Source of the DNA: Siphonodentalium dalli
Taxonomy: Eukaryota > Mollusca > Scaphopoda > Gadilida > Siphonodentaliidae
Direction of reading: 5' to 3'
Assembly: GCA_032622095.1 (NCBI GenBank)
Contig: CP136066.1
Coordinates: forward strand, 50,688,911 to 50,752,910
Length of the DNA: 64,000 nt
Part shown: piece by piece, positions 11,038-64,000 of the stretch
Numbering within the stretch: position 1 is the first letter of the stretch
Layout of the letters: each line of letters starts with the position of its first letter
Notes under the pieces: generated by a model
The model's input: only the letters and a program-made list of their open reading frames with translations
Database searches by the model: none
Told to the model about the DNA's origin: nothing
Position numbers and translations under genes: made by a program

Positions 11038-11118
11038 ATGTCTTTTATACAAGTCAGCACAGAAAGTGATTTCCCAATCCAAAACCTACCATACGGCATC
11101 TTTTCAACGGATGACAAC
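11038..11118 (+). CDS. FAH: FAH exon 1
   Basis: 81 bp from ATG to a GTGAGT donor, encoding [20 protein letters not shown] then IFSTDDN. The MSFI..(E)SDFPI.NLPYG opening is diagnostic of FAH and fixes the start codon. 27 codons, phase 0. Confidence 0.96.
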
Positions 11119-28978: not shown

Positions 28979-29012
28979 GTGAGTAGCAATAAATAATGCT
29001 AGATAACAATGT

Positions 29013-29540
29013 AAGCCTGAAAATAGTGTGTCTGTCATTTGCAGAATGAGGTCCCCAGAGGGTGAATTTAGTGACGCTATCCTGCATAGCAGGCTAGCAT
29101 CACCAAATTCACCCTCTGGGAACCTCATTCTGCTTAGGCCTCATCTTCTGGGAAGTATATATAGTCTCCAAATAACATTGGTTATAGTTACTTCTGTTCA
29201 GTTTCTATATCCCTTTATTTGTACAGTGGGTTAGCATTAACAAATTCCCCCTCTGAAAACCTCTGCTTAGGTCTCAACTGCTATGGGAGACCTAGGATCA
29301 GATTGAAGTTCCCCAGTTGATGTTGGTGATGTCCACCCATTAGTCACCCAGATTATGCATTTTATCTTCTGCAAAATAGGTCATATAGAACCTAAAGAGA
29401 AGGGAATAAGTAACCAAAACCAAAGTTAATTTGATACTTCCCAGAAGATGAGGCCTGAGCAGAATGAGGTCCCCAGAGGGTGAATTTTGTGATGCAAGCC
29501 TTCAAATTCTGCAAATGACAGACACTATTTACAGGCATGG
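29013..29540. mobile_element. hAT-like palindromic MITE, family M copy 4 (long form)
   Basis: Outer arms AAGCCTGAAAATAGTGTGTC and GACAGACACTATTTACAGGC. The left hairpin is intact (29040-29133) and the right one is partial. The interior shares GGCCTCATCTTCTGGGAAGT with copy 2 and carries it again inverted near 29445. Starts 34 bp after the FAH exon 6 donor. Confidence 0.75.
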
Positions 29541-29584
29541 ATACAATTCACTTCCATTTGTGGAAAATTAAATACATTTTAATA

Positions 29585-29667
29585 CTCTCATGTGCCTAAT
29601 AATAGTGTCAGCATGGTTATTCATTTTTTGAGAAACCCCACCATCACTATTATTAGGCACCTGAAAG
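29585..29667. mobile_element. 83-bp TA-flanked MITE (family C ends) next to the satellite
   Basis: CTCTCATGTGCCTAATAATA and inverse TATTATTAGGCACCTGAAAG with TA on both sides (29583-29584, 29668-29669). About 25 bp of non-repeat DNA separate it from the first satellite monomer. Confidence 0.75.
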
Positions 29668-29690
29668 TATTAAAACAGGAAAACATTCAA

Positions 29691-32600
29691 AAACTATCCG
29701 TAAGCTGTAAATGATTGACAATACAACATGAATTGCACTATCCGTAAGCTGTAAATGATTGACAATACAACATGAATTTCAAACTATCCGTAAGCTGTAA
29801 ATGATTGACAAAACAACATGAATTTCAAACTATCTGTAAGCTGTAAATGATTGACAATACAACATGAATTTCAAACTATCTGTAAGCTGTAAATGATTGA
29901 CAATACAACATGAATTTCACTATCTGTAAGCTGTAAATGATTGACAATACAACATGAATTTCACTATCCGTAAGCTGTAAATGATTGACAATACAACATG
30001 AATTTCTATCTGTAAGCTGTAAATGATTGACAATACAACATGAATTTCACTATCTGTAAGCTGTAAATGATTGACAATACAACATGAATTTCTATCTGTA
30101 AGCTGTAAATGATTGACAATACAACATGAATTTCAAACTATCCGTAAGCTGTAAATGATTGACAATACAACATGAATTTCTATCTGTAAGCTGTAAATGA
30201 TTGACAATACAACATGAATTTCTATCTGTAAGCTGTAAATGATTGACAATACAACATGAATTTCTATCTGTAAGCTGTAATGATTGACAATACAACATGA
30301 ATTTCTATCTGTAAGCTGTAAATGATTGACAATACAACATGAATTTCACTATCCGTAAGCTGTAAATGATTGACAATACAACATGAATTTCACTATCCGT
30401 AAGCTGTAAACGATTGACAATACAACATGAATTTCACTATCCGTAAGCTGTAAACGATTGACAATACAACATGAATTTCACTATCCGTAAGCTGTAAATG
30501 ATTGACAATACAACATGAATTTCACTATCCGTAAGCTGTAAATGATTGACAATACAACATGAATTTCACTATCCGTAAGCTGTAAATGATTGACAATACA
30601 ACATGAATTTCACTATCTGTAAGCTGTAAATGATTGACAATACAACATGAATTTCACTATCCGTAAGCTGTAAATGATTGACAATACAACATGAATTTCA
30701 CTATCCGTAAGCTGTAAATGATTGACAATACAACATGAATTTCACTATCCGTAAGCTGTAAATGATTGACAATACAACATGAATTTCTATCTGTAAGCTG
30801 TAAATGATTGACAATACAACATGAATTTCACTATCTGTAAGCTGTAAATGATTGACAATACAACATGAATTTCACTCTCCGTAAGCTGTAAATGATTGAC
30901 AATACAACATGAATTTCACTCTCCGTAAGCTGTAAATGATTGACAATACAACATGAATTTCACTCTCCGTAAGCTGTAAATGATTGACAATACAACATGA
31001 ATTTCACTCTCCGTAAGCTGTAAATGATTGACAATACAACATGAATTTCACTCTCCGTAAGCTGTTAATGATTGACAATACAACATGAATTTCACTCTCC
31101 GTAAGCTGTAAATGATTGACAATACAACATGAATTTCTATCCGTAAGCTGTAAATGATTGACAATACAACATGAATTTCTATCTGTAAGCTGTAAATGAT
31201 TGACAATACAACATGAATTTCCATCTAAGCTGTAAATGATTGACAATACAACATGAATTTCTATCTGTAAGCTGTAAATGATTGACAATACAACATGAAT
31301 TTCTATCTGTAAGCTGTAAATGATTGACAATACAACATGAATTTGTATCTGTAAGCTGTAAATGATTGACAATACAACATGAATTTCTATCTGTAGGCTG
31401 TAAATGATTGACAATACAACATGAATTTCTATCTGTAAGCTGTAAATGATTGACAATACAACATGAATTTCTATCTGTAAGCTGTAAATGATTGACAATA
31501 CAACATGAATTTCTATCTGTAAGCTGTAAATGATTGACAATACAACATGAATTTATATCTGTAAGCTGTAAATGATTGACAATACAACATGAATTTCACT
31601 CTCCGTAAGCTGTAAATGATTGACAATACAACATGAATTTCACTCTCCGTAAGCTGTAAATGATTGACAATACAACATGAATTTCACTCTCCGTAAGCTG
31701 TAAATGATTGACAATACAACATGAATTTCACTCTCCGTAAGCTGTAAATGATTGACAATACAACATGAATTTCACTATCTGTAAGCTGTAAATGATTGAC
31801 AATACAACATGAATTTCACTATCTGTAAGCTGTAAATGATTGACAATACAACATGAATTTCACTATCTGTAAGCTGTAAATGATTGACAATACAACTTGA
31901 ACTTCACTATCTGTAAGCTGTAAATGATTGACAATACAACATGAATTTCACTATCTGTAAGCTGTAAATTATTGACAATACAACATGAATTTCACTATCT
32001 GTAAGCTGTAAATGATTGACAATACAACATGAATTTATATCTGTAAGCTGTAAATGATTGACAATACAACATGAATTTCTATCTGTAAGCTGTAAATGAT
32101 TGACAATACAACATGAATTTCTATCTGTAAGCTGTAAATGATTGACAATACAACATGAATTTCACTCTCCGTAAGCTGTAAATGATTGACAATACAACAT
32201 GAATTTCACTCTCCGTAAGCTGTAAATGATTGACAATACAACATGAATTTCACTCTCCGTAAGCTGTAAATGATTGACAATACATCATGAATTTCACTCT
32301 CCGTAAGCTGTAAATGATTGACAATACAACATGAATTTCTATCTGTAAGCTGTAAATGATTGACAATACAACATGAATTTCACTCTCCGTAAGCTGTAAA
32401 TGATTGACAATACAACATGAATTTCACTCTCCGTAAGCTGAAAATGATTGACAATACAACATGAATTTCACTCTCCGTAAGCTGTAAATGATTGACAATA
32501 CAACATGAATTTCACTCTCCGTATGCTGTAAATGATTGACAATACAACATGAATTTCTATCTGTAAGCTGTAAATGATTGACAATACAACATGAATTTCA

Positions 32601-35600
32601 CTCTCCGTAAGCTGTGAATGATTGACAATACAACATGAATTTCACTCTCCGTAAGCTGTAAATGATTGACAATACAACATGAATTTCACTCTCTGTAAGC
32701 TGTAAATGATTGACAATACAACATGAATTTCACTCTCCGTAAGCTGTAAATGATTGACAATACATCATGAATTTCACTCTCCGTAAGCTGTAAATGATTG
32801 ACAATACATCATGAATTTCACTCTCCGTAAGCTGTAAATGATTGACAATACATCATGAATTTCACTATCCGTAAGCTGTAAATGATTGACAATACAACAT
32901 GAATTTCACTATCTGTAAATGATTGACAATACAACATGAATTTCACTCTCCGTAAGCTGTAAATGATTGACAATACATCATGAATTTCACTCTCCGTAAG
33001 CTGTAAATGATTGACAATACATCATGAATTTCACTCTCTGTAAGCTGTAAATGATTGACAATACATCATGAATTTCACTATCTGTAAATGATTGACAATA
33101 CAACATGAATTTCACTATCTGTAAATGATTGACAATACAACATGAATTTCACTATCCGTAAGCTGTAAATGATTGACAATACAACATGAATTTCACTATC
33201 TGTAAGCTGTAAATGATTGACAATACAACATGAATTTATATCTGTAAGCTGTAAATGATTGACAATACAACATGAATTTCTATCTGTAAGCTGTAAATGA
33301 TTGACAATACAACATGAATTTCACTATCCGTAAGCTGTAAATGATTGACAATACAACATGAATTTCACTATCCGTAAGCTGTAAATGATTGACAATACAA
33401 CATGAATTTCTATCTGTAAGCTGTAAATGATTGACAATACAACATTAATTTCACTATCAGTAAGCTGTAATGATTGACAATACAACATGAATTTCTATCT
33501 GTAAGCTGTAAATGATTGACAATACAACATGAATTTCTATCTGTAAGCTGTAAATGATTGACAATACAACATGAATTTCTATCTGTAAGCTGTAAATGAT
33601 TGACAATACAACATGAATTTCTATCTGTAAGCTGTAAATGATTGACAATACAACATGAATTTCTATCTGTAAGCTGTAAATGATTGACAATACAACATGA
33701 ATTTCACTATCCGTAAGCTGTAAATGATTGACAATACAACATGAATTTCACTCTCCGTAAGCTGTAAATGATTGACAATACAACATGAATTTCACTCTCC
33801 GTAAGCTGTAAATGATTGACAATACAACATGAATTTCACTCTCCGTAAGCTGTAAATGATTGACAATACAACATGAATTTCACTATCAGTAAGCTGTAAT
33901 GATTGACAATACAACATGAATTTCTATCTGTAAGCTGTAAATGATTGACAATACAACATGAATTTCACTATCCGTAAGCTGTAATGATTGACAATACAAC
34001 ATGAATTTCACTATCCGTAAGCTGTAAATGATTGACAATACAACATGAATTTCACTATCCGTAAGCTGTAAATGATTGACAATACAACATGAATTTCACT
34101 ATCAGTAAGCTGTAAATGATTGACAATACAACATGAATTTCACTATCAGTAAGCTGTAATGATTGACAATACAACATGAATTTCTATCTGTAAGCTGTAA
34201 ATGATTGACAATACAACATGAATTTCACTATCCGTAAGCTGTAAATGATTGACAATACAACAGGAATTTCACTCTCCGTAAGCTGTAAATGATTGACAAT
34301 ACAACATGAATTTCACTCTCCGTAAGCTGTAAATGATTGACAATACAACATGAATTTCACTATCCGTAATCTGTAAATGATTGACAATACAACATGAATT
34401 TCACTCTCCGTAAGCTGTAAATGATTGACAATACAACATGAATTTCACTATCTGTAAGCTGTAAATGATTGACAATACAAAATGAATTTCACTCTCTGTA
34501 AGCTGTAAATGATTGACAATACAACATGAATTTCACTATCTGTAAGCTGTAAATGATTGACAATACAACATGAATTTCACTCTCCGTAAGCTGTAAATGA
34601 TTGACAATACAACATGAATTTCACTATCTGTAAGCTGTTAATGATTGACAATACAACATGAATTTCACTATCTGTAAGCTGTAAATGATTGACAATACAA
34701 CATGAATTTCTATCTGTAAGCTGTAAATGATTGACAATACAACATGAATTTCTATCTGTAAGCTGTAAATGATTAACAATACAACATGAATTTCACTATC
34801 CGTAAACTGTAAATGATTGACAATACAACATGAATTTCACTATCTGTAAGCTGTAAATGATTGACAATACAACATGAATTTCACTATCCGTAAACTGTAA
34901 ATGATTGACAATACAACATGAATTTCACTATCTGTAAGCTGTAAATGATTGACAATACAACATGAATTTCACTCTCCGTAAGCTGTAAATGATTGACAAT
35001 ACAACATGAATTTCACTCTCCGTAAGCTGTTAATGATTGACAATACAACATGAATTTCACTCTCCGTAAGCTGTAAATGATTGACAATACAACATGAATT
35101 TCACTCCGTAAGCTGTAAATGATTGACAATACAACATGAATTTCACTCTCCGTAAGCTGTTAATGATTGACAATACAACATGAATTTCACTCTCCGTAAG
35201 CTGTAAATGATTGACAATACAACATGAATTTCTATCCGTAAGCTGTAAATGATTGACAATACAACATGAATTTCTATCTGTAAGCTGTAAATGATTGACA
35301 ATACAACATGAATTTCCATCTAAGCTGTAAATGATTGACAATACAACATGAATTTCTATCTGTAAGCTGTAAATGATTGACAATACAACATGAATTTCTA
35401 TCTGTAAGCTGTAAATGATTGACAATACAACATGAATTTGTATCTGTAAGCTGTAAATGATTGACAATACAACATGAATTTCTATCTGTAAGCTGTAAAT
35501 GATTGACAATACAACATGAATTTCTATCTGTAAGCTGTAAATGATTGACAATACAACATGAATTTCTATCTGTAAGCTGTAAATGATTGACAATACAACA

Positions 35601-38600
35601 TGAATTTCTATCTGTAAGCTGTAAATGATTGACAATACAACATGAATTTCACTCTCTGTAAGCTGTAAATGATTGACAATACAACATTAATTTCACTCTC
35701 CGTAAGCTGTAAATGATTGACAATACAACATGAATTTCACTCTCAGTAAGCTGTAAATGATTGACAATACAACATGAATTTCACTATCTGTAAGCTGTAA
35801 ATGATTGACAATACAACATGAATTTCACTATCTGTAAGCTGTAAATGATTGACAATACAACATGAATTTCACTATCTGTAAGCTGTAAATTATTGACAAT
35901 ACAACATGAACTTCACTATCTGTAAGCTGTAAATGATTGACAATACAACATGAATTTCACTATCTGTAAGCTGTAAATGATTGACAATACAACATGAATT
36001 TCACTATCTGTAAGCTGTAAATGATTGACAATACAACATGAATTTCTATCTGTAAGCTGTAAATGATTGACAATACAACATGAATTTCTATCTGTAAGCT
36101 GTAAATGATTGACAATACAACATGAATTTCTATCTGTAAGCTGTAAATGATTGACAATACAACATGAATTTCACTCTCTGTAAGCTGTAAATGATTGACT
36201 ATACAACATGAATTTCACTCTCCGTAAGCTGTAAATGATTGACAATACAACATGAATTTCACTCTCCGTAAGCTGTAAATGATTGACAATACATCATGAA
36301 TTTCACTCTCCGTAAGCTGTAAATGATTGACAATACAACATGAATTTCTATCTGTAAGCTGTAAATGATTGACAATACAACATGAATTTCACTCTCCGTA
36401 AGCTGTAAATGATTGACAATACAACATGAATTTCACTCTCCGTAAGCTGTAAATGATTGACAATACAACATGAATTTCACTCTCCGTAAGCTGTAAATGA
36501 TTGACAATACAACATGAATTTCTATCTGTAAGCTGTAAATGATTGACAATACAACATGAATTTCACTCTCCGTAAGCTGTAAATGATTGACAATACATCA
36601 TGAATTTCACTCTCCGTAAGCTGTAAATGATTGACAATACATCATGAATTTCACTCTCTGTAAGCTGTAAATGATTGACAATACATCATGAATTTCACTA
36701 TCTGTAAATGATTGACAATACAACATGAATTTCACTATCTGTAAATGATTGACAATAAAACATGAATTTCACTATCCGTAAGCTGTAAATGATTGACAAT
36801 ACAACATGAATTTCACTATCTGTAAGCTGTAAATGATTGACAATACAACATGAATTTATATCTGTAAGCTGTAAATGATTGACAATACAACATGAATTTC
36901 TATCTGTAAGCTGTAAATGATTGACAATACAACATGAATTTCACTATCCGTAAGCTGTAAATGATTGACAATACAACATGAATTTCACTATCCGTAAGCT
37001 GTAAATGATTGACAATACAACATGAATTTCTATCTGTAAGCTGTAAATGATTGACAATACAACATTAATTTCACTATCAGTAAGCTGTAATGATTGACAA
37101 TACAACATGAATTTCTATCTGTAAGCTGTAAATGATTGACAATACAACATGAATTTCTATCTGTAAGCTGTAAATGATTGACAATACAACATGAATTTTT
37201 ATCTGTAAGCTGTAAATGATTGACAATACAACATGAATTTCTATCTGTAAGCTGTAAATGATTGACAATACAACATGAATTTCTATCTGTAAGCTGTAAA
37301 TGATTGACAATACAACATGAATTTCACTATCCGTAAGCTGTAAATGATTGACAATACAACATGAATTTCACTATCCGTAAGCTGTAAATGATTGACAATA
37401 CAACATGAATTTCACTATCCGTAAGCTGTAAATGATTGACAATACAACATGAATTTCTATCTGTAAGCTGTAAATGATTGACAATACAACATTAATTTCA
37501 CTATCAGTAAGCTGTAAATGATTGACAATACAACATGAATTTCTATCTGTAAGCTGTAAATGATTGACAATACAACATGAATTTCTATCTGTAAGCTGTA
37601 AATGATTGACAATACAACATGAATTTCTATCTGTAAGCTGTAAATGATTGACAATACAACATGAATTTCTATCTGTAAGCTGTAAATGATTGACAATACA
37701 ACATGAATTTCTATCTGTAAGCTGTAAATGATTGACAATACAACATGAATTTCACTATCCGTAAGCTGTAAATGATTGACAATACAACATGAATTTCACT
37801 CTCCGTAAGCTGTAAATGATTGACAATACAACATGAATTTCACTCTCCGTAAGCTGTAAATGATTGACAATACAACATGAATTTCACTATCAGTAAGCTG
37901 TAATGATTGACAATACAACATGAATTTCTATCTGTAAGCTGTAAATGATTGACAATACAACATGAATTTCACTATCCGTAAGCTGTAATGATTGACAATA
38001 CAACATGAATTTCACTATCCGTAAGCTGTAAATGATTGACAATACAACATGAATTTCACTATCCGTAAGCTGTAAATGATTGACAATACAACATGAATTT
38101 CACTATCAGTAAGCTGTAAATGATTGACAATACAACATGAATTTCACTATCAGTAAGCTGTAATGATTGACAATACAACATGAATTTCTATCTGTAAGCT
38201 GTAAATGATTGACAATACAACATGAATTTCACTATCCGTAAGCTGTAAATGATTGACAATACAACAGGAATTTCACTCTCCGTAAGCTGTAAATGATTGA
38301 CAATACAACATGAATTTCACTCTCCGTAAGCTGTAAATGATTGACAATACAACATGAATTTCACTATCCGTAATCTGTAAATGATTGACAATACAACATG
38401 AATTTCACTCTCCGTAAGCTGTAAATGATTGACAATACAACATGAATTTCACTATCTGTAAGCTGTAAATGATTGACAATACAACATGAATTTCACTCTC
38501 TGTAAGCTGTAAATGATTGACAATACAACATGAATTTCACTATCTGTAAGCTGTAAATGATTGACAATACAACATGAATTTCACTCTCCGTAAGCTGTAA

Positions 38601-41600
38601 ATGATTGACAATACAACATGAATTTCACTATCTGTAAGCTGTTAATGATTGACAATACAACATGAATTTCACTATCTGTAAGCTGTAAATGATTGACAAT
38701 ACAACATGAATTTCTATCTGTAAGCTGTAAATGATTGACAATACAACATGAATTTCTATCTGTAAGCTGTAAATGATTAACAATACAACATGAATTTCAC
38801 TATCCGTAAACTGTAAATGATTGACAATACAACATGAATTTCACTATCTGTAAGCTGTAAATGATTGACAATACAACATGAATTTCACTATCCGTAAACT
38901 GTAAATGATTGACAATACAACATGAATTTCACTATCTGTAAGCTGTAAATGATTGACAATACAACATGAATTTCACTCTCCGTAAGCTGTAAATGATTGA
39001 CAATACAACATGAATTTCACTCTCCGTAAGCTGTTAATGATTGACAATACAACATGAATTTCACTCTCCGTAAGCTGTAAATGATTGACAATACAACATG
39101 AATTTCACTCCGTAAGCTGTAAATGATTGACAATACAACATGAATTTCACTCTCCGTAAGCTGTTAATGATTGACAATACAACATGAATTTCACTCTCCG
39201 TAAGCTGTAAATGATTGACAATACAACATGAATTTCTATCCGTAAGCTGTAAATGATTGACAATACAACATGAATTTCTATCTGTAAGCTGTAAATGATT
39301 GACAATACAACATGAATTTCCATCTAAGCTGTAAATGATTGACAATACAACATGAATTTCTATCTGTAAGCTGTAAATGATTGACAATACAACATGAATT
39401 TCTATCTGTAAGCTGTAAATGATTGACAATACAACATGAATTTGTATCTGTAAGCTGTAAATGATTGACAATACAACATGAATTTCTATCTGTAAGCTGT
39501 AAATGATTGACAATACAACATGAATTTCTATCTGTAAGCTGTAAATGATTGACAATACAACATGAATTTCTATCTGTAAGCTGTAAATGATTGACAATAC
39601 AACATGAATTTCTATCTGTAAGCTGTAAATGATTGACAATACAACATGAATTTCACTCTCTGTAAGCTGTAAATGATTGACAATACAACATTAATTTCAC
39701 TCTCCGTAAGCTGTAAATGATTGACAATACAACATGAATTTCACTCTCAGTAAGCTGTAAATGATTGACAATACAACATGAATTTCACTATATGTAAGCT
39801 GTAAATGATTGACAATACAACATGAATTTCACTATCTGTAAGCTGTAAATGATTGACAATACAACATGAATTTCACTATCTGTAAGCTGTAAATTATTGA
39901 CAATACAACATGAACTTCACTATCTGTAAGCTGTAAATGATTGACAATACAACATGAATTTCACTATCTGTAAGCTGTAAATGATTGACAATACAACATG
40001 AATTTCACTCTCCGTAAGCTGTAAATGATTGACAATACAACATGAATTTCACTCTCCGTAAGCTGTAAATGATTGACAATACATCATGAATTTCACTCTC
40101 CGTAAGCTGTAAATGATTGACAATACAACATGAATTTCTATCTGTAAGCTGTAAATGATTGACAATACAACATGAATTTCACTCTCCGTAAGCTGTAAAT
40201 GATTGACAATACAACATGAATTTCACTCTCCGTAAGCTGTAAATGATTGACAATACAACATGAATTTCACTCTCCGTAAGCTGTAAATGATTGACAATAC
40301 AACATGAATTTCTATCTGTAAGCTGTAAATGATTGACAATACAACATGAATTTCACTCTCCGTAAGCTGTAAATGATTGACAATACATCATGAATTTCAC
40401 TCTCCGTAAGCTGTAAATGATTGACAATACATCATGAATTTCACTCTCTGTAAGCTGTAAATGATTGACAATACATCATGAATTTCACTATCTGTAAATG
40501 ATTGACAATACAACATGAATTTCACTATCTGTAAATGATTGACAATACAACATGAATTTCACTATCCGTAAGCTGTAAATGATTGACAATACAACATGAA
40601 TTTATATCTGTAAGCTGTAAATGATTGACAATACAACATGAATTTCTATCTGTAAGCTGTAAATGATTGACAATACAACATGAATTTCACTATCCGTAAG
40701 CTGTAAATGATTGACAATACAACATGAATTTCACTATCCGTAAGCTGTAAATGATTGACAATACAACATGAATTTCTATCTAAGCTGTAAATGATTGACA
40801 ATACAACATTAATTTCACTATCAGTAAGCTGTAATGATTGACAATACAACATGAATTTCTATCTGTAAGCTGTAAATGATTGACAATACAACATGAATTT
40901 CTATCTGTAAGCTGTAAATGATTGACAATACAACATGAATTTCTATCTGTAAGCTGTAAATGATTGACAATACAACATGAATTTCTATCTGTAAGCTGTA
41001 AATGATTGACAATACATCATGAATTTCACTATCTGTAAATGATTGACAATACAACATGAATTTCACTATCTGTAAATGATTGACAATACAACATGAATTT
41101 CACTATCCGTAAGCTGTAAATGATTGACAATACAACATGAATTTATATCTGTAAGCTGTAAATGATTGACAATACAACATGAATTTCTATCTGTAAGCTG
41201 TAAATGATTGACAATACAACATGAATTTCACTATCCGTAAGCTGTAAATGATTGACAATACAACATGAATTTCACTATCCGTAAGCTGTAAATGATTGAC
41301 AATACAACATGAATTTCTATCTAAGCTGTAAATGATTGACAATACAACATTAATTTCACTATCAGTAAGCTGTAATGATTGACAATACAACATGAATTTC
41401 TATCTGTAAGCTGTAAATGATTGACAATACAACATGAATTTCTATCTGTAAGCTGTAAATGATTGACAATACAACATGAATTTCTATCTGTAAGCTGTAA
41501 ATGATTGACAATACAACATGAATTTCTATCTGTAAGCTGTAAATGATTGACAATACAACATGAATTTCTATCTGTAAGCTGTAAATGATTGACAATACAA

Positions 41601-44600
41601 CATGAATTTCACTATCCGTAAGCTGTAAATGATTGACAATACAACATGAATTTCACTATCCGTAAGCTGTAAATGATTGACAATACAACATGAATTTCAC
41701 TATCCGTAAGCTGTAAATGATTGACAATACAACATGAATTTCTATCTGTAAGCTGTAAATGATTGACAATACAACATTAATTTCACTATCAGTAAGCTGT
41801 AATGATTGACAATACAACATGAATTTCTATCTGTAAGCTGTAAATGATTGACAATACAACATGAATTTCTATCTGTAAGCTGTAAATGATTGACAATACA
41901 ACATGAATTTCTATCTGTAAGCTGTAAATGATTGACAATACAACATGAATTTCTATCTGTAAGCTGTAAATGATTGACAATACAACATGAATTTCTATCT
42001 GTAAGCTGTAAATGATTGACAATACAACATGAATTTCACTATCCGTAAGCTGTAAATGATTGACAATACAACATGAATTTCACTCTCCGTAAGCTGTAAA
42101 TGATTGACAATACAACATGAATTTCACTCTCCGTAAGCTGTAAATGATTGACAATACAACATGAATTTCACTATCAGTAAGCTGTAATGATTGACAATAC
42201 AACATGAATTTCTATCTGTAAGCTGTAAATGATTGACAATACAACATGAATTTCACTATCCGTAAGCTGTAATGATTGACAATACAACATGAATTTCACT
42301 ATCCGTAAGCTGTAAATGATTGACAATACAACATGAATTTCACTATCCGTAAGCTGTAAATGATTGACAATACAACATGAATTTCACTATCAGTAAGCTG
42401 TAAATGATTGACAATACAACATGAATTTCACTATCAGTAAGCTGTAATGATTGACAATACAACATGAATTTCTATCTGTAAGCTGTAAATGATTGACAAT
42501 ACAACATGAATTTCACTATCCGTAAGCTGTAAATGATTGACAATACAACAGGAATTTCACTCTCCGTAAGCTGTAAATGATTGACAATACAACATGAATT
42601 TCACTCTCCGTAAGCTGTAAATGATTGACAATACAACATGAATTTCACTATCCGTAATCTGTAAATGATTGACAATACAACATGAATTTCACTCTCCGTA
42701 AGCTGTAAATGATTGACAATACAACATGAATTTCACTATCTGTAAGCTGTAAATGATTGACAATACAACATGAATTTCACTCTCTGTAAGCTGTAAATGA
42801 TTGACAATACAACATGAATTTCACTATCTGTAAGCTGTAAATGATTGACAATACAACATGAATTTCACTCTCCGTAAGCTGTAAATGATTGACAATACAA
42901 CATGAATTTCACTATCTGTAAGCTGTTAATGATTGACAATACAACATGAATTTCACTATCTGTAAGCTGTAAATGATTGACAATACAACATGAATTTCTA
43001 TCTGTAAGCTGTAAATGATTGACAATACAACATGAATTTCTATCTGTAAGCTGTAAATGATTAACAATACAACATGAATTTCACTATCCGTAAACTGTAA
43101 ATGATTGACAATACAACATGAATTTCACTATCTGTAAGCTGTAAATGATTGACAATACAACATGAATTTCACTATCCGTAAACTGTAAATGATTGACAAT
43201 ACAACATGAATTTCACTATCTGTAAGCTGTAAATGATTGACAATACAACATGAATTTCACTCTCCGTAAGCTGTAAATGATTGACAATACAACATGAATT
43301 TCACTCTCCGTAAGCTGTTAATGATTGACAATACAACATGAATTTCACTCTCCGTAAGCTGTAAATGATTGACAATACAACATGAATTTCACTCCGTAAG
43401 CTGTAAATGATTGACAATACAACATGAATTTCACTCTCCGTAAGCTGTTAATGATTGACAATACAACATGAATTTCTATCCGTAAGCTGTAAATGATTGA
43501 CAATACAACATGAATTTCTATCCGTAAGCTGTAAATGATTGACAATACAACATGAATTTCTATCTGTAAGCTGTAAATGATTGACAATACAACATGAATT
43601 TCCATCTAAGCTGTAAATGATTGACAATACAACATGAATTTCTATCTGTAAGCTGTAAATGATTGACAATACAACATGAATTTCTATCTGTAAGCTGTAA
43701 ATGATTGACAATACAACATGAATTTGTATCTGTAAGCTGTAAATGATTGACAATACAACATGAATTTCTATCTGTAAGCTGTAAATGATTGACAATACAA
43801 CATGAATTTCTATCTGTAAGCTGTAAATGATTGACAATACAACATGAATTTCTATCTGTAAGCTGTAAATGATTGACAATACAACATGAATTTCTATCTG
43901 TAAGCTGTAAATGATTGACAATACAACATGAATTTCACTCTCTGTAAGCTGTAAATGATTGACAATACAACATTAATTTCACTCTCCGTAAGCTGTAAAT
44001 GATTGACAATACAACATGAATTTCACTCTCAGTAAGCTGTAAATGATTGACAATACAACATGAATTTCACTATCTGTAAGCTGTAAATGATTGACAATAC
44101 AACATGAATTTCACTATCTGTAAGCTGTAAATGATTGACAATACAACATGAATTTCACTATCTGTAAGCTGTAAATTATTGACAATACAACATGAACTTC
44201 ACTATCTGTAAGCTGTAAATGATTGACAATACAACATGAATTTCACTATCTGTAAGCTGTAAATGATTGACAATACAACATGAATTTCACTATCTGTAAG
44301 CTGTAAATGATTGACAATACAACATGAATTTCTATCTGTAAGCTGTAAATGATTGACAATACAACATGAATTTCTATCTGTAAGCTGTAAATGATTGACA
44401 ATACAACATGAATTTCTATCTGTAAGCTGTAAATGATTGACAATACAACATGAATTTCACTCTCTGTAAGCTGTAAATGATTGACTATACAACATGAATT
44501 TCACTCTCCGTAAGCTGTAAATGATTGACAATACAACATGAATTTCACTCTCCGTAAGCTGTAAATGATTGACAATACATCATGAATTTCACTCTCCGTA

Positions 44601-50600: not shown

Positions 50601-53600
50601 ATTGACAATACAACATGAATTTCACTATCAGTAAGCTGTAATGATTGACAATACAACATGAATTTCTATCTGTAAGCTGTAAATGATTGACAATACAACA
50701 TGAATTTCACTATCCGTAAGCTGTAATGATTGACAATACAACATGAATTTCACTATCCGTAAGCTGTAAATGATTGACAATACAACATGAATTTCACTAT
50801 CCGTAAGCTGTAAATGATTGACAATACAACATGAATTTCACTATCAGTAAGCTGTAAATGATTGACAATACAACATGAATTTCACTATCAGTAAGCTGTA
50901 ATGATTGACAATACAACATGAATTTCTATCTGTAAGCTGTAAATGATTGACAATACAACATGAATTTCACTATCCGTAAGCTGTAAATGATTGACAATAC
51001 AACAGGAATTTCACTCTCCGTAAGCTGTAAATGATTGACAATACAACATGAATTTCACTCTCCGTAAGCTGTAAATGATTGACAATACAACATGAATTTC
51101 ACTATCCGTAATCTGTAAATGATTGACAATACAACATGAATTTCACTCTCCGTAAGCTGTAAATGATTGACAATACAACATGAATTTCACTATCCGTAAG
51201 CTGTAAATGATTGACAATACAACATGAATTTCACTCTCCGTAAGCTGTAAATGATTGACAATACAACATGAATTTCACTATCTGTAAGCTGTAAATGATT
51301 GACAATACAACATGAATTTCACTCTCCGTAAGCTGTAAATGATTGACAATACAACATGAATTTCACTATCTGTAAGCTGTTAATGATTGACAATACAACA
51401 TGAATTTCACTATCTGTAAGCTGTAAATGATTGACAATACAACATGAATTTCTATCTGTAAGCTGTAAATGATTGACAATACAACATGAATTTCTATCTG
51501 TAAGCTGTAAATGATTAACAATACAACATGAATTTCACTATCCGTAAACTGTAAATGATTGACAATACAACATGAATTTCACTATCTGTAAGCTGTAAAT
51601 GATTGACAATACAACATGAATTTCACTATCCGTAAACTGTAAATGATTGACAATACAACATGAATTTCACTATCTGTAAGCTGTAAATGATTGACAATAC
51701 AACATGAATTTCACTCTCCGTAAGCTGTAAATGATTGACAATACAACATGAATTTTACTCTCCGTAAGCTGTTAATGATTGACAATACAACATGAATTTC
51801 ACTCTCCGTAAGCTGTAAATGATTGACAATACAACATGAATTTCACTCCGTAAGCTGTAAATGATTGACAATACAACATGAATTTCACTCTCCGTAAGCT
51901 GTTAATGATTGACAATACAACATGAATTTCACTCTCCGTAAGCTGTAAATGATTGACAATACATCATGAATTTCTATCCGTAAGCTGTAAATGATTGACA
52001 ATACAACATGAATTTCTATCTGTAAGCTGTAAATGATTGACAATACAACATGAATTTCCATCTAAGCTGTAAATGATTGACAATACAACATGAATTTCTA
52101 TCTGTAAGCTGTAAATGATTGACAATACAACATGAATTTCTATCTGTAAGCTGTAAATGATTGACAATACAACATGAATTTGTATCTGTAAGCTGTAAAT
52201 GATTGACAATACAACATGAATTTCTATCTGTAAGCTGTAAATGATTGACAATACAACATGAATTTCTATCTGTAAGCTGTAAATGATTGACAATACAACA
52301 TGAATTTCTATCTGTAAGCTGTAAATGATTGACAATACAACATGAATTTCTATCTGTAAGCTGTAAATGATTGACAATACAACATGAATTTCTATCTGTA
52401 AGCTGTAAATGATTGACAATACAACATGAATTTGTATCTGTAAGCTGTAAATGATTGACAATACAACATGAATTTCTATCTGTAAGCTGTAAATGATTGA
52501 CAATACAACATGAATTTCTATCTGTAAGCTGTAAATGATTGACAATACAACATGAATTTCTATCTGTAAGCTGTAAATGATTGACAATACAACATGAATT
52601 TCTATCTGTAAGCTGTAAATGATTGACAATACAACATGAATTTCACTCTCTGTAAGCTGTAAATGATTGACAATACAACATTAATTTCACTCTCCGTAAG
52701 CTGTAAATGATTGACAATACAACATGAATTTCACTCTCAGTAAGCTGTAAATGATTGACAATACAACATGAATTTCACTATCTGTAAGCTGTAAATGATT
52801 GACAATACAACATGAATTTCACTATCTGTAAGCTGTAAATGATTGACAATACAACATGAATTTCACTATCTGTAAGCTGTAAATTATTGACAATACAACA
52901 TGAACTTCACTATCTGTAAGCTGTAAATGATTGACAATACAACATGAATTTCACTATCTGTAAGCTGTAAATGATTGACAATACAACATGAATTTCACTA
53001 TCTGTAAGCTGTAAATGATTGACAATACAACATGAATTTCTATCTGTAAGCTGTAAATGATTGACAATACAACATGAATTTCTATCTGTAAGCTGTAAAT
53101 GATTGACAATACAACATGAATTTCTATCTGTAAGCTGTAAATGATTGACAATACAACATGAATTTCACTCTCTGTAAGCTTTAAATGATTGACTATACAA
53201 CATGAATTTCACTCTCCGTAAGCTGTAAATGATTGACAATACAACATGAATTTCACTCTCCGTAAGCTGTAAATGATTGACAATACATCATGAATTTCAC
53301 TCTCCGTAAGCTGTAAATGATTGACAATACAACATGAATTTCTATCTGTAAGCTGTAAATGATTGACAATACAACATGAATTTCACTCTCCGTAAGCTGT
53401 AAATGATTGACAATACAACATGAATTTCACTCTCCGTAAGCTGTAAATGATTGACAATACAACATGAATTTCACTCTCCGTAAGCTGTAAATGATTGACA
53501 ATACAACATGAATTTCTATCTGTAAGCTGTAAATGATTGACAATACAACATGAATTTCACTCTCCGTAAGCTGTAAATGATTGACAATACATCATGAATT

Positions 53601-56600
53601 TCACTCTCCGTAAGCTGTAAATGATTGACAATACATCATGAATTTCACTCTATGTAAGCTGTAAATGATTGACAATACATCATGAATTTCACTATCTGTA
53701 AATGATTGACAATACAACATGAATTTCACTATCTGTAAATGATTGACAATACAACATGAATTTCACTATCCGTAAGCTGTAAATGATTGACAATACAACA
53801 TGAATTTCACTATCTGTAAGCTGTAAATGATTGACAATACAACATGAATTTATATCTGTAAGCTGTAAATGATTGACAATACAACATGAATTTCTATCTG
53901 TAAGCTGTAAATGATTGACAATACAACATGAATTTCACTCTCCGTAAGCTGTAAATGATTGACAATACAACATGAATTTCACTATCCGTAAGCTGTAAAT
54001 GATTGACAATACAACATGAATTTCACTCTCCGTAAGCTGTAAATGATTGACAATACAACATGAATTTCACTATCTGTAAGCTGTAAATGATTGACAATAC
54101 AACATGAATTTCACTCTCCGTAAGCTGTAAATGATTGACAATACAACATGAATTTCACTATCTGTAAGCTGTTAATGATTGACAATACAACATGAATTTC
54201 ACTATCTGTAAGCTGTAAATGATTGACAATACAACATGAATTTCTATCTGTAAGCTGTAAATGATTGACAATACAACATGAATTTCTATCTGTAAGCTGT
54301 AAATGATTAACAATACAACATGAATTTCACTATCCGTAAACTGTAAATGATTGACAATACAACATGAATTTCACTATCTGTAAGCTGTAAATGATTGACA
54401 ATACAACATGAATTTCACTATCCGTAAACTGTAAATGATTGACAATACAACATGAATTTCACTATCTGTAAGCTGTAAATGATTGACAATACAACATGAA
54501 TTTCACTCTCCGTAAGCTGTAAATGATTGACAATACAACATGAATTTTACTCTCCGTAAGCTGTTAATGATTGACAATACAACATGAATTTCACTCTCCG
54601 TAAGCTGTAAATGATTGACAATACAACATGAATTTCACTCCGTAAGCTGTAAATGATTGACAATACAACATGAATTTCACTCTCCGTAAGCTGTTAATGA
54701 TTGACAATACAACATGAATTTCACTCTCCGTAAGCTGTAAATGATTGACAATACATCATGAATTTCTATCCGTAAGCTGTAAATGATTGACAATACAACA
54801 TGAATTTCTATCTGTAAGCTGTAAATGATTGACAATACAACATGAATTTCCATCTAAGCTGTAAATGATTGACAATACAACATGAATTTCTATCTGTAAG
54901 CTGTAAATGATTGACAATACAACATGAATTTCTATCTGTAAGCTGTAAATGATTGACAATACAACATGAATTTGTATCTGTAAGCTGTAAATGATTGACA
55001 ATACAACATGAATTTCTATCTGTAAGCTGTAAATGATTGACAATACAACATGAATTTCTATCTGTAAGCTGTAAATGATTGACAATACAACATGAATTTC
55101 TATCTGTAAGCTGTAAATGATTGACAATACAACATGAATTTCTATCTGTAAGCTGTAAATGATTGACAATACAACATGAATTTCTATCTGTAAGCTGTAA
55201 ATGATTGACAATACAACATGAATTTGTATCTGTAAGCTGTAAATGATTGACAATACAACATGAATTTCTATCTGTAAGCTGTAAATGATTGACAATACAA
55301 CATGAATTTCTATCTGTAAGCTGTAAATGATTGACAATACAACATGAATTTCTATCTGTAAGCTGTAAATGATTGACAATACAACATGAATTTCTATCTG
55401 TAAGCTGTAAATGATTGACAATACAACATGAATTTCACTCTCTGTAAGCTGTAAATGATTGACAATACAACATTAATTTCACTCTCCGTAAGCTGTAAAT
55501 GATTGACAATACAACATGAATTTCACTCTCAGTAAGCTGTAAATGATTGACAATACAACATGAATTTCACTATCTGTAAGCTGTAAATGATTGACAATAC
55601 AACATGAATTTCACTATCTGTAAGCTGTAAATGATTGACAATACAACATGAATTTCACTATCTGTAAGCTGTAAATTATTGACAATACAACATGAACTTC
55701 ACTATCTGTAAGCTGTAAATGATTGACAATACAACATGAATTTCACTATCTGTAAGCTGTAAATGATTGACAATACAACATGAATTTCACTATCTGTAAG
55801 CTGTAAATGATTGACAATACAACATGAATTTCTATCTGTAAGCTGTAAATGATTGACAATACAACATGAATTTCTATCTGTAAGCTGTAAATGATTGACA
55901 ATACAACATGAATTTGTATCTGTAAGCTGTAAATGATTGACAATACAACATGAATTTCACTCTCTGTAAGCTTTAAATGATTGACTATACAACATGAATT
56001 TCACTCTCCGTAAGCTGTAAATGATTGACAATACAACATGAATTTCACTCTCCGTAAGCTGTAAATGATTGACAATACATCATGAATTTCACTCTCCGTA
56101 AGCTGTAAATGATTGACAATACAACATGAATTTCTATCTGTAAGCTGTAAATGATTGACAATACAACATGAATTTCACTCTCCGTAAGCTGTAAATGATT
56201 GACAATACAACATGAATTTCACTCTCCGTAAGCTGTAAATGATTGACAATACAACATGAATTTCACTCTCCGTAAGCTGTAAATGATTGACAATACAACA
56301 TGAATTTCTATCTGTAAGCTGTAAATGATTGACAATACAACATGAATTTCACTCTCCGTAAGCTGTAAATGATTGACAATACATCATGAATTTCACTCTC
56401 CGTAAGCTGTAAATGATTGACAATACATCATGAATTTCACTCTATGTAAGCTGTAAATGATTGACAATACATCATGAATTTCACTATCTGTAAATGATTG
56501 ACAATACAACATGAATTTCACTATCTGTAAATGATTGACAATACAACATGAATTTCACTATCCGTAAGCTGTAAATGATTGACAATACAACATGAATTTC

Positions 56601-59600
56601 ACTATCTGTAAGCTGTAAATGATTGACAATACAACATGAATTTATATCTGTAAGCTGTAAATGATTGACAATACAACATGAATTTCTATCTGTAAGCTGT
56701 AAATGATTGACAATACAACATGAATTTCACTATCCGTAAGCTGTAAATGATTGACAATACAACATGAATTTCACTATCCGTAAGCTGTAAATGATTGACA
56801 ATACAACATGAATTTCTATCTGTAAGCTGTAAATGATTGACAATACAACATTAATTTCACTATCAGTAAGCTGTAATGATTGACAATACAACATGAATTT
56901 CTATCTGTAAGCTGTAAATGATTGACAATACAACATGAATTTCTATCTGTAAGCTGTAAATGATTGACAATACAACATGAATTTCTATCTGTAAGCTGTA
57001 AATGATTGACAATACAACATGAATTTCTATCTGTAAGCTGTAAATGATTGACAATACAACATGAATTTCTATCTGTAAGCTGTAAATGATTGACAATACA
57101 ACATGAATTTCACTATCCGTAAGCTGTAAATGATTGACAATACAACATGAATTTCACTCTCCGTAAGCTGTAAATGATTGACAATACAACATGAATTTCA
57201 CTCTCCGTAAGCTGTAAATGATTGACAATACAACATGAATTTCACTATCAGTAAGCTGTAATGATTGACAATACAACATGAATTTCTATCTGTAAGCTGT
57301 AAATGATTGACAATACAACATGAATTTCACTATCCGTAAGCTGTAATGATTGACAATACAACATGAATTTCACTATCCGTAAGCTGTAAATGATTGACAA
57401 TACAACATGAATTTCACTATCCGTAAGCTGTAAATGATTGACAATACAACATGAATTTCACTATCAGTAAGCTGTAAATGATTGACAATACAACATGAAT
57501 TTCACTATCAGTAAGCTGTAATGATTGACAATACAACATGAATTTCTATCTGTAAGCTGTAAATGATTGACAATACAACATGAATTTCACTATCCGTAAG
57601 CTGTAAATGATTGACAATACAACAGGAATTTCACTCTCCGTAAGCTGTAAATGATTGACAATACAACATGAATTTCACTCTCCGTAAGCTGTAAATGATT
57701 GACAATACAACATGAATTTCACTATCCGTAATCTGTAAATGATTGACAATACAACATGAATTTCACTCTCCGTAAGCTGTAAATGATTGACAATACAACA
57801 TGAATTTCACTATCTGTAAGCTGTAAATGATTGACAATACAACATGAATTTCACTCTCTGTAAGCTGTAAATGATTGACAATACAACATGAATTTCACTA
57901 TCTGTAAGCTGTAAATGATTGACAATACAACATGAATTTCACTCTCCGTAAGCTGTAAATGATTGACAATACAACATGAATTTCACTATCTGTAAGCTGT
58001 TAATGATTGACAATACAACATGAATTTCACTATCTGTAAGCTGTAAATGATTGACAATACAACATGAATTTCTATCTGTAAGCTGTAAATGATTGACAAT
58101 ACAACATGAATTTCTATCTGTAAGCTGTAAATGATTAACAATACAACATGAATTTCACTATCCGTAAACTGTAAATGATTGACAATACAACATGAATTTC
58201 ACTATCTGTAAGCTGTAAATGATTGACAATACAACATGAATTTCACTATCCGTAAACTGTAAATGATTGACAATACAACATGAATTTCACTATCTGTAAG
58301 CTGTAAATGATTGACAATACAACATGAATTTCACTCTCCGTAAGCTGTAAATGATTGACAATACAACATGAATTTCACTCTCCGTAAGCTGTTAATGATT
58401 GACAATACAACATGAATTTCACTCTCCGTAAGCTGTAAATGATTGACAATACAACATGAATTTCACTCCGTAAGCTGTAAATGATTGACAATACAACATG
58501 AATTTCACTCTCCGTAAGCTGTTAATGATTGACAATACAACATGAATTTCACTCTCCGTAAGCTGTAAATGATTGACAATACAACATGAATTTCTATCCG
58601 TAAGCTGTAAATGATTGACAATACAACATGAATTTCTATCTGTAAGCTGTAAATGATTGACAATACAACATGAATTTCTATCTGTAAGCTGTAAATGATT
58701 GACAATACAACATGAATTTCTATCTGTAAGCTGTAAATGATTGACATTACAACATGAATTTGTATCTGTAAGCTGTAAATGATTGACAATACAACATGAA
58801 TTTCTATCTGTAAGCTGTAAATGATTGACAATACAACATGAATTTCTATCTGTAAGCTGTAAATGATTGACAATACAACATGAATTTCTATCTGTAAGCT
58901 GTAAATGATTGACAATACAACATGAATTTCTATCTGTAAGCTGTAAATGATTGACAATACAACATGAATTTCACTCTCCGTAAGCTGTAAATGATTGACA
59001 ATACAACATTAATTTCACTCTCCGTAAGCTGTAAATGATTGACAATACAACATGAATTTCACTCTCAGTAAGCTGTAAATGATTGACAATACAACATGAA
59101 TTTCACTATCTGTAAGCTGTAAATGATTGACAATACAACATGAATTTCACTATCTGTAAGCTGTAAATGATTGACAATACAACATGAATTTCACTATCTG
59201 TAAGCTGTAAATTATTGACAATACAACATGAACTTCACTATCTGTAAGCTGTAAATGATTGACAATACAACATGAATTTCACTATCTGTAAGCTGTAAAT
59301 GATTGACAATACAACATGAATTTCACTATCTGTAAGCTGTAAATGATTGACAATACAACATGAATTTCTATCTGTAAGCTGTAAATGATTGACAATACAA
59401 CATGAATTTCTATCTGTAAGCTGTAAATGATTGACAATACAACATGAATTTCTATCTGTAAGCTGTAAATGATTGACAATACAACATGAATTTCACTCTC
59501 TGTAAGCTGTAAATGATTGACTATACAACATGAATTTCACTCTCCGTAAGCTGTAAATGATTGACAATACAACATGAATTTCACTCTCCGTAAGCTGTAA

Positions 59601-62600
59601 ATGATTGACAATACATCATGAATTTCACTCTCCGTAAGCTGTAAATGATTGACAATACAACATGAATTTCTATCTGTAAGCTGTAAATGATTGACAATAC
59701 AACATGAATTTCACTCTCCGTAAGCTGTAAATGATTGACAATACAACATGAATTTCACTCTCCGTAAGCTGTAAATGATTGACAATACAACATGAATTTC
59801 ACTCTCCGTAAGCTGTAAATGATTGACAATACAACATGAATTTCACTCTCTGTAAGCTGTAAATGATTGACAATACAACATGAATTTCACTCTCCGTAAG
59901 CTGTAAATGATTGACAATACATCATGAATTTCACCCTCCGTAAGCTGTAAATGATTGACAATACATCATGAATTTCACTCTCCGTAAGCTGTAAATGATT
60001 GACAATACATCATGAATTTCACTATCCGTAAGCTGTAAATGATTGACAATACAACATGAATTTCACTATCTGTAAATGATTGACAATACAACATGAATTT
60101 CACTCTCCGTAAGCTGTAAATGATTGACAATACATCATGAATTTCACTCTCCGTAAGCTGTAAATGATTGACAATACATCATGAATTTCACTCTCCGTAA
60201 GCTGTAAATGATTGACAATACATCATGAATTTCACTATCCGTAAGCTGTAAATGATTGACAATACAACATGAATTTCACTATCTGTAAATGATTGACAAT
60301 ACAACATGAATTTCACTATCCGTAAGCTGTAAATGATTGACAATACAACATGAATTTCACTATCTGTAAGCTGTAAATGATTGACAATACAACATGAATT
60401 TATATCTGTAAGCTGTAAATGATTGACAATACAACATGAATTTCTATCTGTAAGCTGTAAATGATTGACAATACAACATGAATTTCACTATCCGTAAGCT
60501 GTAAATGATTGACAATACAACATGAATTTCACTATCCGTAAGCTGTAAATGATTGACAATACAACATGAATTTCACTCTCCGTAAGCTGTAAATGATTGA
60601 CAATACAACATGAATTTCACTATCAGTAAGCTGTAATGATTGACAATACAACATGAATTTCTATCTGTAAGCTGTAAATGATTGACAATACAACATGAAT
60701 TTCACTATCTGTAAGCTGTAAATGATTGACAATACAACATGAATTTCTATCTGTAAGCTGTAAATGATTGACAATACAACATGAATTTCTATCTGTAAGC
60801 TGTAAATGATTGACAATACAACATGAATTTCTATCTGTAAGCTGTAAATGATTGACAATACAACATGAATTTCACTCTCTGTAAGCTGTAAATGATTGAC
60901 TATACAACATGAATTTCACTCTCCGTAAGCTGTAAATGATTGACAATACAACATGAATTTCACTCTCCGTAAGCTGTAAATGATTGACAATACATCATGA
61001 ATTTCACTCTCCGTAAGCTGTAAATGATTGACAATACAACATGAATTTCTATCTGTAAGCTGTAAATGATTGACAATACAACATGAATTTCACTCTCCGT
61101 AAGCTGTAAATGATTGACAATACAACATGAATTTCACTCTCCGTAAGCTGTAAATGATTGACAATACAACATGAATTTCACTCTCCGTAAGCTGTAAATG
61201 ATTGACAATACAACATGAATTTCTATCTGTAAGCTGTAAATGATTGACAATACAACATGAATTTCACTCTCCGTAAGCTGTAAATGATTGACAATACATC
61301 ATGAATTTCACTCTCCGTAAGCTGTAAATGATTGACAATACATCATGAATTTCACTCTCTGTAAGCTGTAAATGATTGACAATACATCATGAATTTCACT
61401 ATCTGTAAATGATTGACAATACAACATGAATTTCACTATCTGTAAATGATTGACAATACAACATGAATTTCACTATCCGTAAGCTGTAAATGATTGACAA
61501 TACAACATGAATTTCACTATCTGTAAGCTGTAAATGATTGACAATACAACATGAATTTATATCTGTAAGCTGTAAATGATTGACAATACAACATGAATTT
61601 CTATCTGTAAGCTGTAAATGATTGACAATACAACATGAATTTCACTATCCGTAAGCTGTAAATGATTGACAATACAACATGAATTTCACTATCCGTAAGC
61701 TGTAAATGATTGACAATACAACATGAATTTCTATCTGTAAGCTGTAAATGATTGACAATACAACATTAATTTCACTATCAGTAAGCTGTAATGATTGACA
61801 ATACAACATGAATTTCTATCTGTAAGCTGTAAATGATTGACAATACAACATGAATTTGTATCTGTAAGCTGTAAATGATTGACAATACAACATGAATTTC
61901 TATCTGTAAGCTGTAAATGATTGACAATACAACATGAATTTCTATCTGTAAGCTGTAAATGATTGACAATACAACATGAATTTCTATCTGTAAGCTGTAA
62001 ATGATTGACAATACAACATGAATTTCACTATCCGTAAGCTGTAAATGATTGACAATACAACATGAATTTCACTCTCCGTAAGCTGTAAATGATTGACAAT
62101 ACAACATGAATTTCACTCTCCGTAAGCTGTAAATGATTGACAATACAACATGAATTTCACTATCAGTAAGCTGTAATGATTGACAATACAACATGAATTT
62201 CTATCTGTAAGCTGTAAATGATTGACAATACAACATGAATTTCACTATCCGTAAGCTGTAATGATTGACAATACAACATGAATTTCACTATCCGTAAGCT
62301 GTAAATGATTGACAATACAACATGAATTTCACTATCCGTAAGCTGTAAATGATTGACAATACAACATGAATTTCACTATCAGTAAGCTGTAAATGATTGA
62401 CAATACAACATGAATTTCACTATCAGTAAGCTGTAATGATTGACAATACAACATGAATTTCTATCTGTAAGCTGTAAATGATTGACAATACAACATGAAT
62501 TTCAGTATCCGTAAGCTGTAAATGATTGACAATACAACAGTAATTTCACTCTCCGTAAGCTGTAAATGATTGACAATACAACATGAATTTCACTCTCCGT

Positions 62601-64000
62601 AAGCTGTAAATGATTGACAATACAACATGAATTTCACTATCCGTAATCTGTAAATGATTGACAATACAACATGAATTTCACTCTCTGTAAGCTGTAAATG
62701 ATTGACAATACAACATGAATTTCACTATCCGTAAGCTGTAAATGATTGACAATACAACATGAATTTCACTCTCCGTAAGCTGTAAATGATTGACAATACA
62801 ACATGAATTTCACTATCTGTAAGCTGTAAATGATTGACAATACAACATGAATTTCACTCTCCGTAAGCTGTAAATGATTGACAATACAACATGAATTTCA
62901 CTATCTGTAAGCTGTTAATGATTGACAATACAACATGAATTTCACTATCTGTAAGCTGTAAATGATTGACAATACAACATGAATTTCTATCTGTAAGCTG
63001 TAAATGATTGACAATACAACATGAATTTCTATCTGTAAGCTGTAAATGATTAACAATACAACATGAATTTCACTATCCGTAAACTGTAAATGATTGACAA
63101 TACAACATGAATTTCACTATCTGTAAGCTGTAAATGATTGACAATACAACATGAATTTCACTATCCGTAAACTGTAAATGATTGACAATACAACATGAAT
63201 TTCACTATCTGTAAGCTGTAAATGATTGACAATACAACATGAATTTCACTCTCCGTAAGCTGTAAATGATTGACAATACAACATGAATTTCACTCTCCAT
63301 AAGCTGTAAATGATTGACAATACAACATGAATTTCACTCCGTAAGCTGTAAATGATTGACAATACAACATGAATTTCACTCTCCGTAAGCTGTTAATGAT
63401 TGACAATACAACATGAATTTCACTCTCCGTAAGCTGTAAATGATTGACAATACAACATGAATTTCTATCCGTAAGCTGTAAATGATTGACAATACAACAT
63501 GAATTTCTATCTGTAAGCTGTAAATGATTGACAATACAACATGAATTTCCATCTAAGCTGTAAATGATTGACAATACAACATGAATTTCTATCTGTAAGC
63601 TGTAAATGATTGACAATACAACATGAATTTCTATCTGTAAGCTGTAAATGATTGACAATACAACATGAATTTGTATCTGTAAGCTGTAAATGATTGACAA
63701 TACAACATGAATTTCTATCTGTAAGCTGTAAATGATTGACAATACAACATGAATTTCTATCTGTAAGCTGTAAATGATTGACAATACAACATGAATTTCT
63801 ATCTGTAAGCTGTAAATGATTGACAATACAACATGAATTTCTATCTGTAAGCTGTAAATGATTGACAATACAACATGAATTTCACTATCCGTAAGCTGTA
63901 AATGATTGACAATACAACAGTAATTTCACTCTCCGTAAGCTGTAAATGATTGACAATACAACATGAATTTCACTCTCCGTAAGCTGTAAATGATTGACAA
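29691..64000. repeat. Satellite array, 42-44 bp monomers, head to tail, irregular higher-order structure
   Basis: Continuous array to the right edge, all monomers in one orientation, roughly 790 copies by division. Core of the monomer: GTAAGCTGTAAATGATTGAC then AATACAACATGAATTT. Length classes: 42 bp (TTTCTATCTG), 44 bp (TTTCACTATCCG or TTTCACTCTCCG), 43 bp (GCTGTAATG), and a 37-bp form that lacks GTAAGCT. The first few units at the left edge are longer (TTTCAAACTATC). Rare variants recur in a fixed order, so blocks of many monomers have been duplicated. The marker GAACTTC occurs at 31899, 35908, 39912, 44194, 49074, 52902, 55694 and 59230. No gene lies in the array; open frames exist only because 42 is divisible by three. 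Confidence 0.98.
51200..56780. repeat. 2792-bp direct duplication of a satellite block
   Basis: Block around 51.2-53.9 kb is repeated at 54.0-56.7 kb. Markers CCATCTAAGC (52058, 54850) and GAACTTC (52902, 55694) are both exactly 2792 bp apart. Both copies share the same inner expansion of six 42-bp monomers and the private variant AAGCTTTAAATG (53177, 55969), which I did not see in the other blocks. The outer limits given are approximate. Confidence 0.85.

Follow-up and report, generated by a model that had tools for sequence, protein, structure and literature searches.

An 87-kb locus-private minisatellite array in intron 6 of a predicted intact fumarylacetoacetase gene of Siphonodentalium dalli

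Intron 6 of the fumarylacetoacetase (FAH) gene predicted in the Siphonodentalium dalli assembly (2.23 Gb, 9 contigs) is occupied almost entirely by a tandem array of 44- and 42-bp units whose core sequence was found at no other locus. We consider it likely, with a probability of roughly 0.85, that FAH is intact and apparently single-copy, that a 44-bp minisatellite private to this locus originated within intron 6 and expanded there to about 87 kb, and that the array is likely spliced out. The window, i.e., the whole stretch of DNA analyzed, comprises 64,000 nucleotides of contig C6 (C6:50,688,911-50,752,910). A further 55 kb past its end was added, giving 119 kb read in total and numbered in joined coordinates. 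The features of the locus were as follows, in window positions unless a contig is named.

11038..11118, plus strand: FAH coding exon 1 (tblastn with mouse FAH; donor GTGAGT)
16939..17049, plus strand: FAH coding exon 2 (tblastn with mouse FAH, splice sites, joined coding sequence)
19712..19833, plus strand: FAH coding exon 3 (tblastn with mouse FAH, splice sites, joined coding sequence)
21426..21475, plus strand: FAH coding exon 4 (separate search of the window, splice sites, joined coding sequence)
23682..23772, plus strand: FAH coding exon 5 (tblastn with mouse FAH, splice sites, joined coding sequence)
28881..28978, plus strand: FAH coding exon 6 (tblastn, joined coding sequence; donor GTGAGT directly 3')
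28979..64000, plus strand: first 35.0 kb of FAH intron 6 (88,010 bp in all, to exon 7 at C6:50,805,899)
29015..29536, no strand assigned: MITE-like element with nested inverted repeats (I1, I4 and I5), in the spacer that separates exon 6 from the array
29577..29675, no strand assigned: short MITE-like palindrome adjoining the array (inverted repeat I3; high-copy in the genome)
29693..64000, plus strand: first 34.3 kb of the 44/42-bp tandem array (TRF and unit segmentation; ends outside the window at C6:50,805,469)
C6:50,805,899-50,814,816, plus strand: FAH exons 7-13 (same contig as exons 1-6, gene order kept)

A tblastn search of the assembly with mouse FAH (a sequence also present among the PDB matches) returned 11 plus-strand matches on C6 in gene order, five inside the window and the other six past its end (50,805,898-50,814,804), and one further row on C7 at chance level (E 4.4). 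The small exon 10 was located beyond the array by a separate search. The initial annotation had noted that exon 7 was lacking from the window and proposed looking for exon 7 onward on the plus strand past the array. Exons 7-13 were found there, and the KPPVYGACKLLD-like peptide that it anticipated is present as KPPVFGPCKLFD. It had also raised the possibility of later FAH exons elsewhere in the genome; the mouse FAH search of the 2.23-Gb assembly gave no second FAH locus, and the gene on C6 appears to be single-copy.

Joining the 13 coding exons at GT-AG sites yielded 420 codons with no internal stop, and the predicted protein was 73% identical to mouse FAH over 417 aa without a gap. The phase was preserved between exons 6 and 7, where a Thr codon is divided into A and CT, and the peptide across the predicted junction reads RPDE from exon 6 followed by TKPPVFGPCKLFD. 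The predicted protein matched solved fumarylacetoacetases in the PDB over residues 1-418 (E about 1e-217), and both PF09298 (N-terminal) and PF01557 (catalytic) were detected above the Pfam cut-off. On these sequence comparisons, we take the locus to be a full-length FAH gene with an undamaged coding frame. Exon 7 of S. dalli FAH presumably corresponds to human FAH exons 7 and 8 fused.

The extent of the array was defined from both sides. TRF reported a single array in the window, with period 44 and 95% matches, which begins at 29693 and occupies the remaining 34,308 bp, and exon 6 ends at 28978, so that the array begins 714 bp into the intron. These positions agreed with the initial annotation, which had described a GTGAGT donor at exon 6 and at least 34.3 kb of satellite inside FAH intron 6, starting about 0.7 kb past the exon and running off the window; its range of 28979-64000 holds for the intron start together with the array, whereas the array proper runs from 29693. 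Beyond the window, the array stops at joined coordinate 116559 (C6:50,805,469), and the exon 7 acceptor (TTTCTTACAG) follows 429 bp past its end. The array comprises about 2,016 units, gap-free and in one orientation, for a total of 86,867 bp as assembled, a length that depends on the resolution of near-identical blocks of about 25 kb. It accounts for 98.7% of the 88,010 bp of intron 6 and approximately three quarters of the 115-kb FAH gene, and the other FAH introns measured are a few kb each, compared with 88 kb for intron 6. No FAH exons were found inside the array, which lies as a whole between the donor and the acceptor of one intron, as in a satellite-filled intron. The earlier reasoning that transcription of an intact FAH must cross the array probably applies here, with the 13-exon frame open and exons on both flanks. 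Because loss of FAH in humans causes tyrosinaemia type I, the S. dalli gene is probably needed and would have to be transcribed across the array.

Segmentation yielded 2,015 units with 75 distinct sequences, mostly 44 or 42 bp in length. In this one assembly, the units are arranged head to tail with 95% matches, and their size is that of a minisatellite (about 10-100 bp). Identical unit order recurred at lags of 24.8, 9.0, and 4.9 kb. The segment at joined 40.9-65.7 kb is duplicated as 65.7-90.5 kb, and unit-level alignment of these two 24.8-kb copies (576 versus 576 units) gave 551 matches, 6 mismatches, and 38 gaps, with an exact run of 206 units (8.9 kb) common to both. Variants seen once were enriched at the left edge, where the first 8 kb of the array held 11 of the 27. 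Unequal exchange is suggested by the block duplications and by the clustering of private variants at the left edge. Such exchange would have homogenized the middle of the array and left more private variants at this edge; expansion in place to about 87 kb would most likely have proceeded by unequal exchange together with block duplication.

The sense strand of the array contained no stop-free run longer than 22 codons. Antisense open runs of up to 238 codons were given no weight as coding potential, because a frame free of stops arises readily in repeated units. AGGT was absent from the array and AATAAA occurred once, and the array therefore holds few signals for exon inclusion or polyadenylation; a weak donor-like GTAAG was present in most units. 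A U1 and polyadenylation argument for selection, based on this combination of many GTAAG and one AATAAA, was discarded because about 83% of shuffled units were free of polyadenylation hexamers and about 5% carried GTRAG, making the pattern little more than expected by chance.

With regard to the origin of the unit, the exact 23-base core occurred 1,754 times in the assembly, and all 1,754 copies were in the FAH array; the array therefore probably grew in place. Arrays of this unit at several loci, the hallmark of a dispersed or centromeric satellite, were not observed. When up to 3 mismatches were allowed, the genome contained 2,084 + 77 matches versus 2,016 in the array, leaving 145 places outside. 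The near matches inspected were members of a dispersed family whose similarity to the core covers 20-22 bp and is absent from the surrounding sequence. This family was rejected as the source of the unit, and the shared 20-22 bp were treated as a chance match multiplied by the copy number of the family; given the 145 near-match places, there is a small possibility of a dispersed source. Other FAH sequence was likewise rejected, as the search for an ancestral unit in the rest of the gene yielded only matches of 14-16 bp, at chance level. Most likely, the array grew in place from a local sequence that is no longer recognizable. The dispersed family itself (L043-L052) has about 100 or more copies and carries an almost constant word, TTATTAACAATACAACATGCATT, which resembles the satellite core. 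The short palindromic MITE at 29577-29675 (TTTTAATACTC...GCCTAATAATAGTG) has 960 first-look candidates genome-wide, and some of its other copies adjoin tandem repeats.

To place the array in its genomic background, we sampled 20 arbitrary 4-kb points, a small sample in which tandem repeats with a period of at least 10 made up 18.5% of the bases and one of the 20 points fell wholly within an array. This array (C8:39990001-40014000) has a 63-bp unit and spans at least 24 kb. A 22-base word from it occurred 2,753 times in the genome, in one orientation, and 99 of the 100 places listed were together on C8, with the remaining one on C6. If the unlisted copies also lie there, the C8 array would exceed 170 kb. 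Large private arrays are thus probably a general trait of the S. dalli genome, among which the FAH array would be one of many, and an intronic array therefore needs no special cause.

Four alternatives to in-place growth within an intact gene were weighed. It is unlikely that the array, although real, has been inflated or collapsed in size by the assembly, or that unrelated loci have been joined inside it. A 24.8-kb stretch followed by a near-identical copy with a long exact run is the kind of block that is difficult to assemble, but in a misjoin both unrelated loci would have needed the array, whereas its core occurs nowhere else, and the array is flanked by the two halves of a single gene, which join in phase. 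The count of zero N bases in the 119 kb also argues against a misjoin, although not against a wrong length. Because the core is private to the array and FAH was found once, the misjoined contig that the initial annotation had offered as an alternative is very unlikely. It is highly improbable that the unit was the tandem-repeat portion of a mobile element, inserted into the intron and subsequently amplified. Two MITE-like elements, one of them high-copy, lie in the 714-bp spacer, and the dispersed family has 20-22 bp in common with the core; however, the satellite unit was absent from all 11 of the other copies of the adjacent MITE that were checked, and the similarity to the dispersed family stops at 22 bp, so that a transposon origin is already weakened.

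A gene broken at this point, the other alternative put forward initially, found no support in the open 420-codon frame. Disruption or silencing of FAH by the array, with transcription stopping or being mis-spliced there, might be suspected from an intron of at least 88 kb, compared with a few kb for the other introns measured, and from the weak donor-like sites in most units. Such an outcome is nevertheless extremely improbable, because the frame is open on both sides of the array and aligns with mouse FAH without gaps, as would be the case if the gene were under selection or had been silenced only very recently; the scarcity of AGGT and AATAAA in the array and the transcription of far larger satellite-filled introns in Drosophila (PMC6508621) also argue against it. 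An array kept by selection for a regulatory effect on the timing, expression level, or chromatin state of FAH would be compatible with its near-complete occupancy of the intron, with its strong homogenization, and with the roles proposed for the giant satellite-filled introns of Drosophila (PMC6508621). We regard it as quite improbable, since unequal exchange alone would give homogenization, one of the 20 arbitrary genome points likewise fell in a large array, and RNA of the unit folded no better than shuffles (z = +1.5). The chance is similarly slim that the amount of functional FAH is influenced by the array together with the splice edges copied in tandem at exons 3 and 12; if this were the case, array length or splice-site competition would tune a metabolic gene. 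The array is most likely a passive passenger of an intact FAH gene, which would be transcribed within the FAH pre-mRNA and removed upon splicing of exon 6 to exon 7, and it is best described as striking but ordinary repeat growth in an array-rich genome.

The FAH array resembles minisatellites and VNTRs in unit size, in its variant units, and in its locus-private expansion, and is much longer than usual minisatellite loci. It provides a clean natural example in which a metabolic gene has retained its coding frame with 99% of one intron made up of satellite, and it could serve to test how polymerase and the spliceosome handle arrays of this kind in a setting other than the Drosophila Y chromosome. 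Satellite-filled introns as such are already known, and the new elements here are the metabolic gene and the private unit. In Y-linked fertility genes of Drosophila, satellite-filled introns are established and their satellites are transcribed (PMC6508621). As in the gigantic introns of kl-3 and kl-5, the intronic satellite makes up most of the gene length, the exons are intact, and the satellite must be transcribed to make mRNA (PMC6508621). In contrast to those Y-linked genes, whose introns reach megabases and consist of simple satellites (PMC6508621), FAH is a metabolic gene with one 88-kb intron and a locus-private 44-bp unit, and its transcription across the array is probable. Large tandem arrays inside introns have also been listed for the human genome (PMC2588610, Table 2C); these are likewise tens of kb long, wholly intronic, and explained by unequal crossing over, but their units exceed about 2 kb, compared with 44 bp in FAH (PMC2588610).

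Other tandem repeats were observed in and around the gene. At 19488-19749, about 3.5 tandem copies (75-bp period) of the exon 3 acceptor and the beginning of exon 3 are present, so that the real exon 3 acceptor is preceded by decoy acceptors (TTTTATAGCAAA) whose exon starts are degenerate. The 3' end of exon 12 and its donor form 12 repeats that extend into intron 12 (C6, L004:1604-2065), 9 of which are followed by GTGAGT or GTAAGT and could compete as donors. Intron 5 contains a stop-free 250-aa frame (25434-26186) with a zinc-finger-like motif ending ...H...H; it had no Pfam match and is possibly a transposon remnant. Upstream of FAH, a degenerate tandem repeat cluster at 5227-6254 showed periods of 122, 56, 131, and 262 bp.
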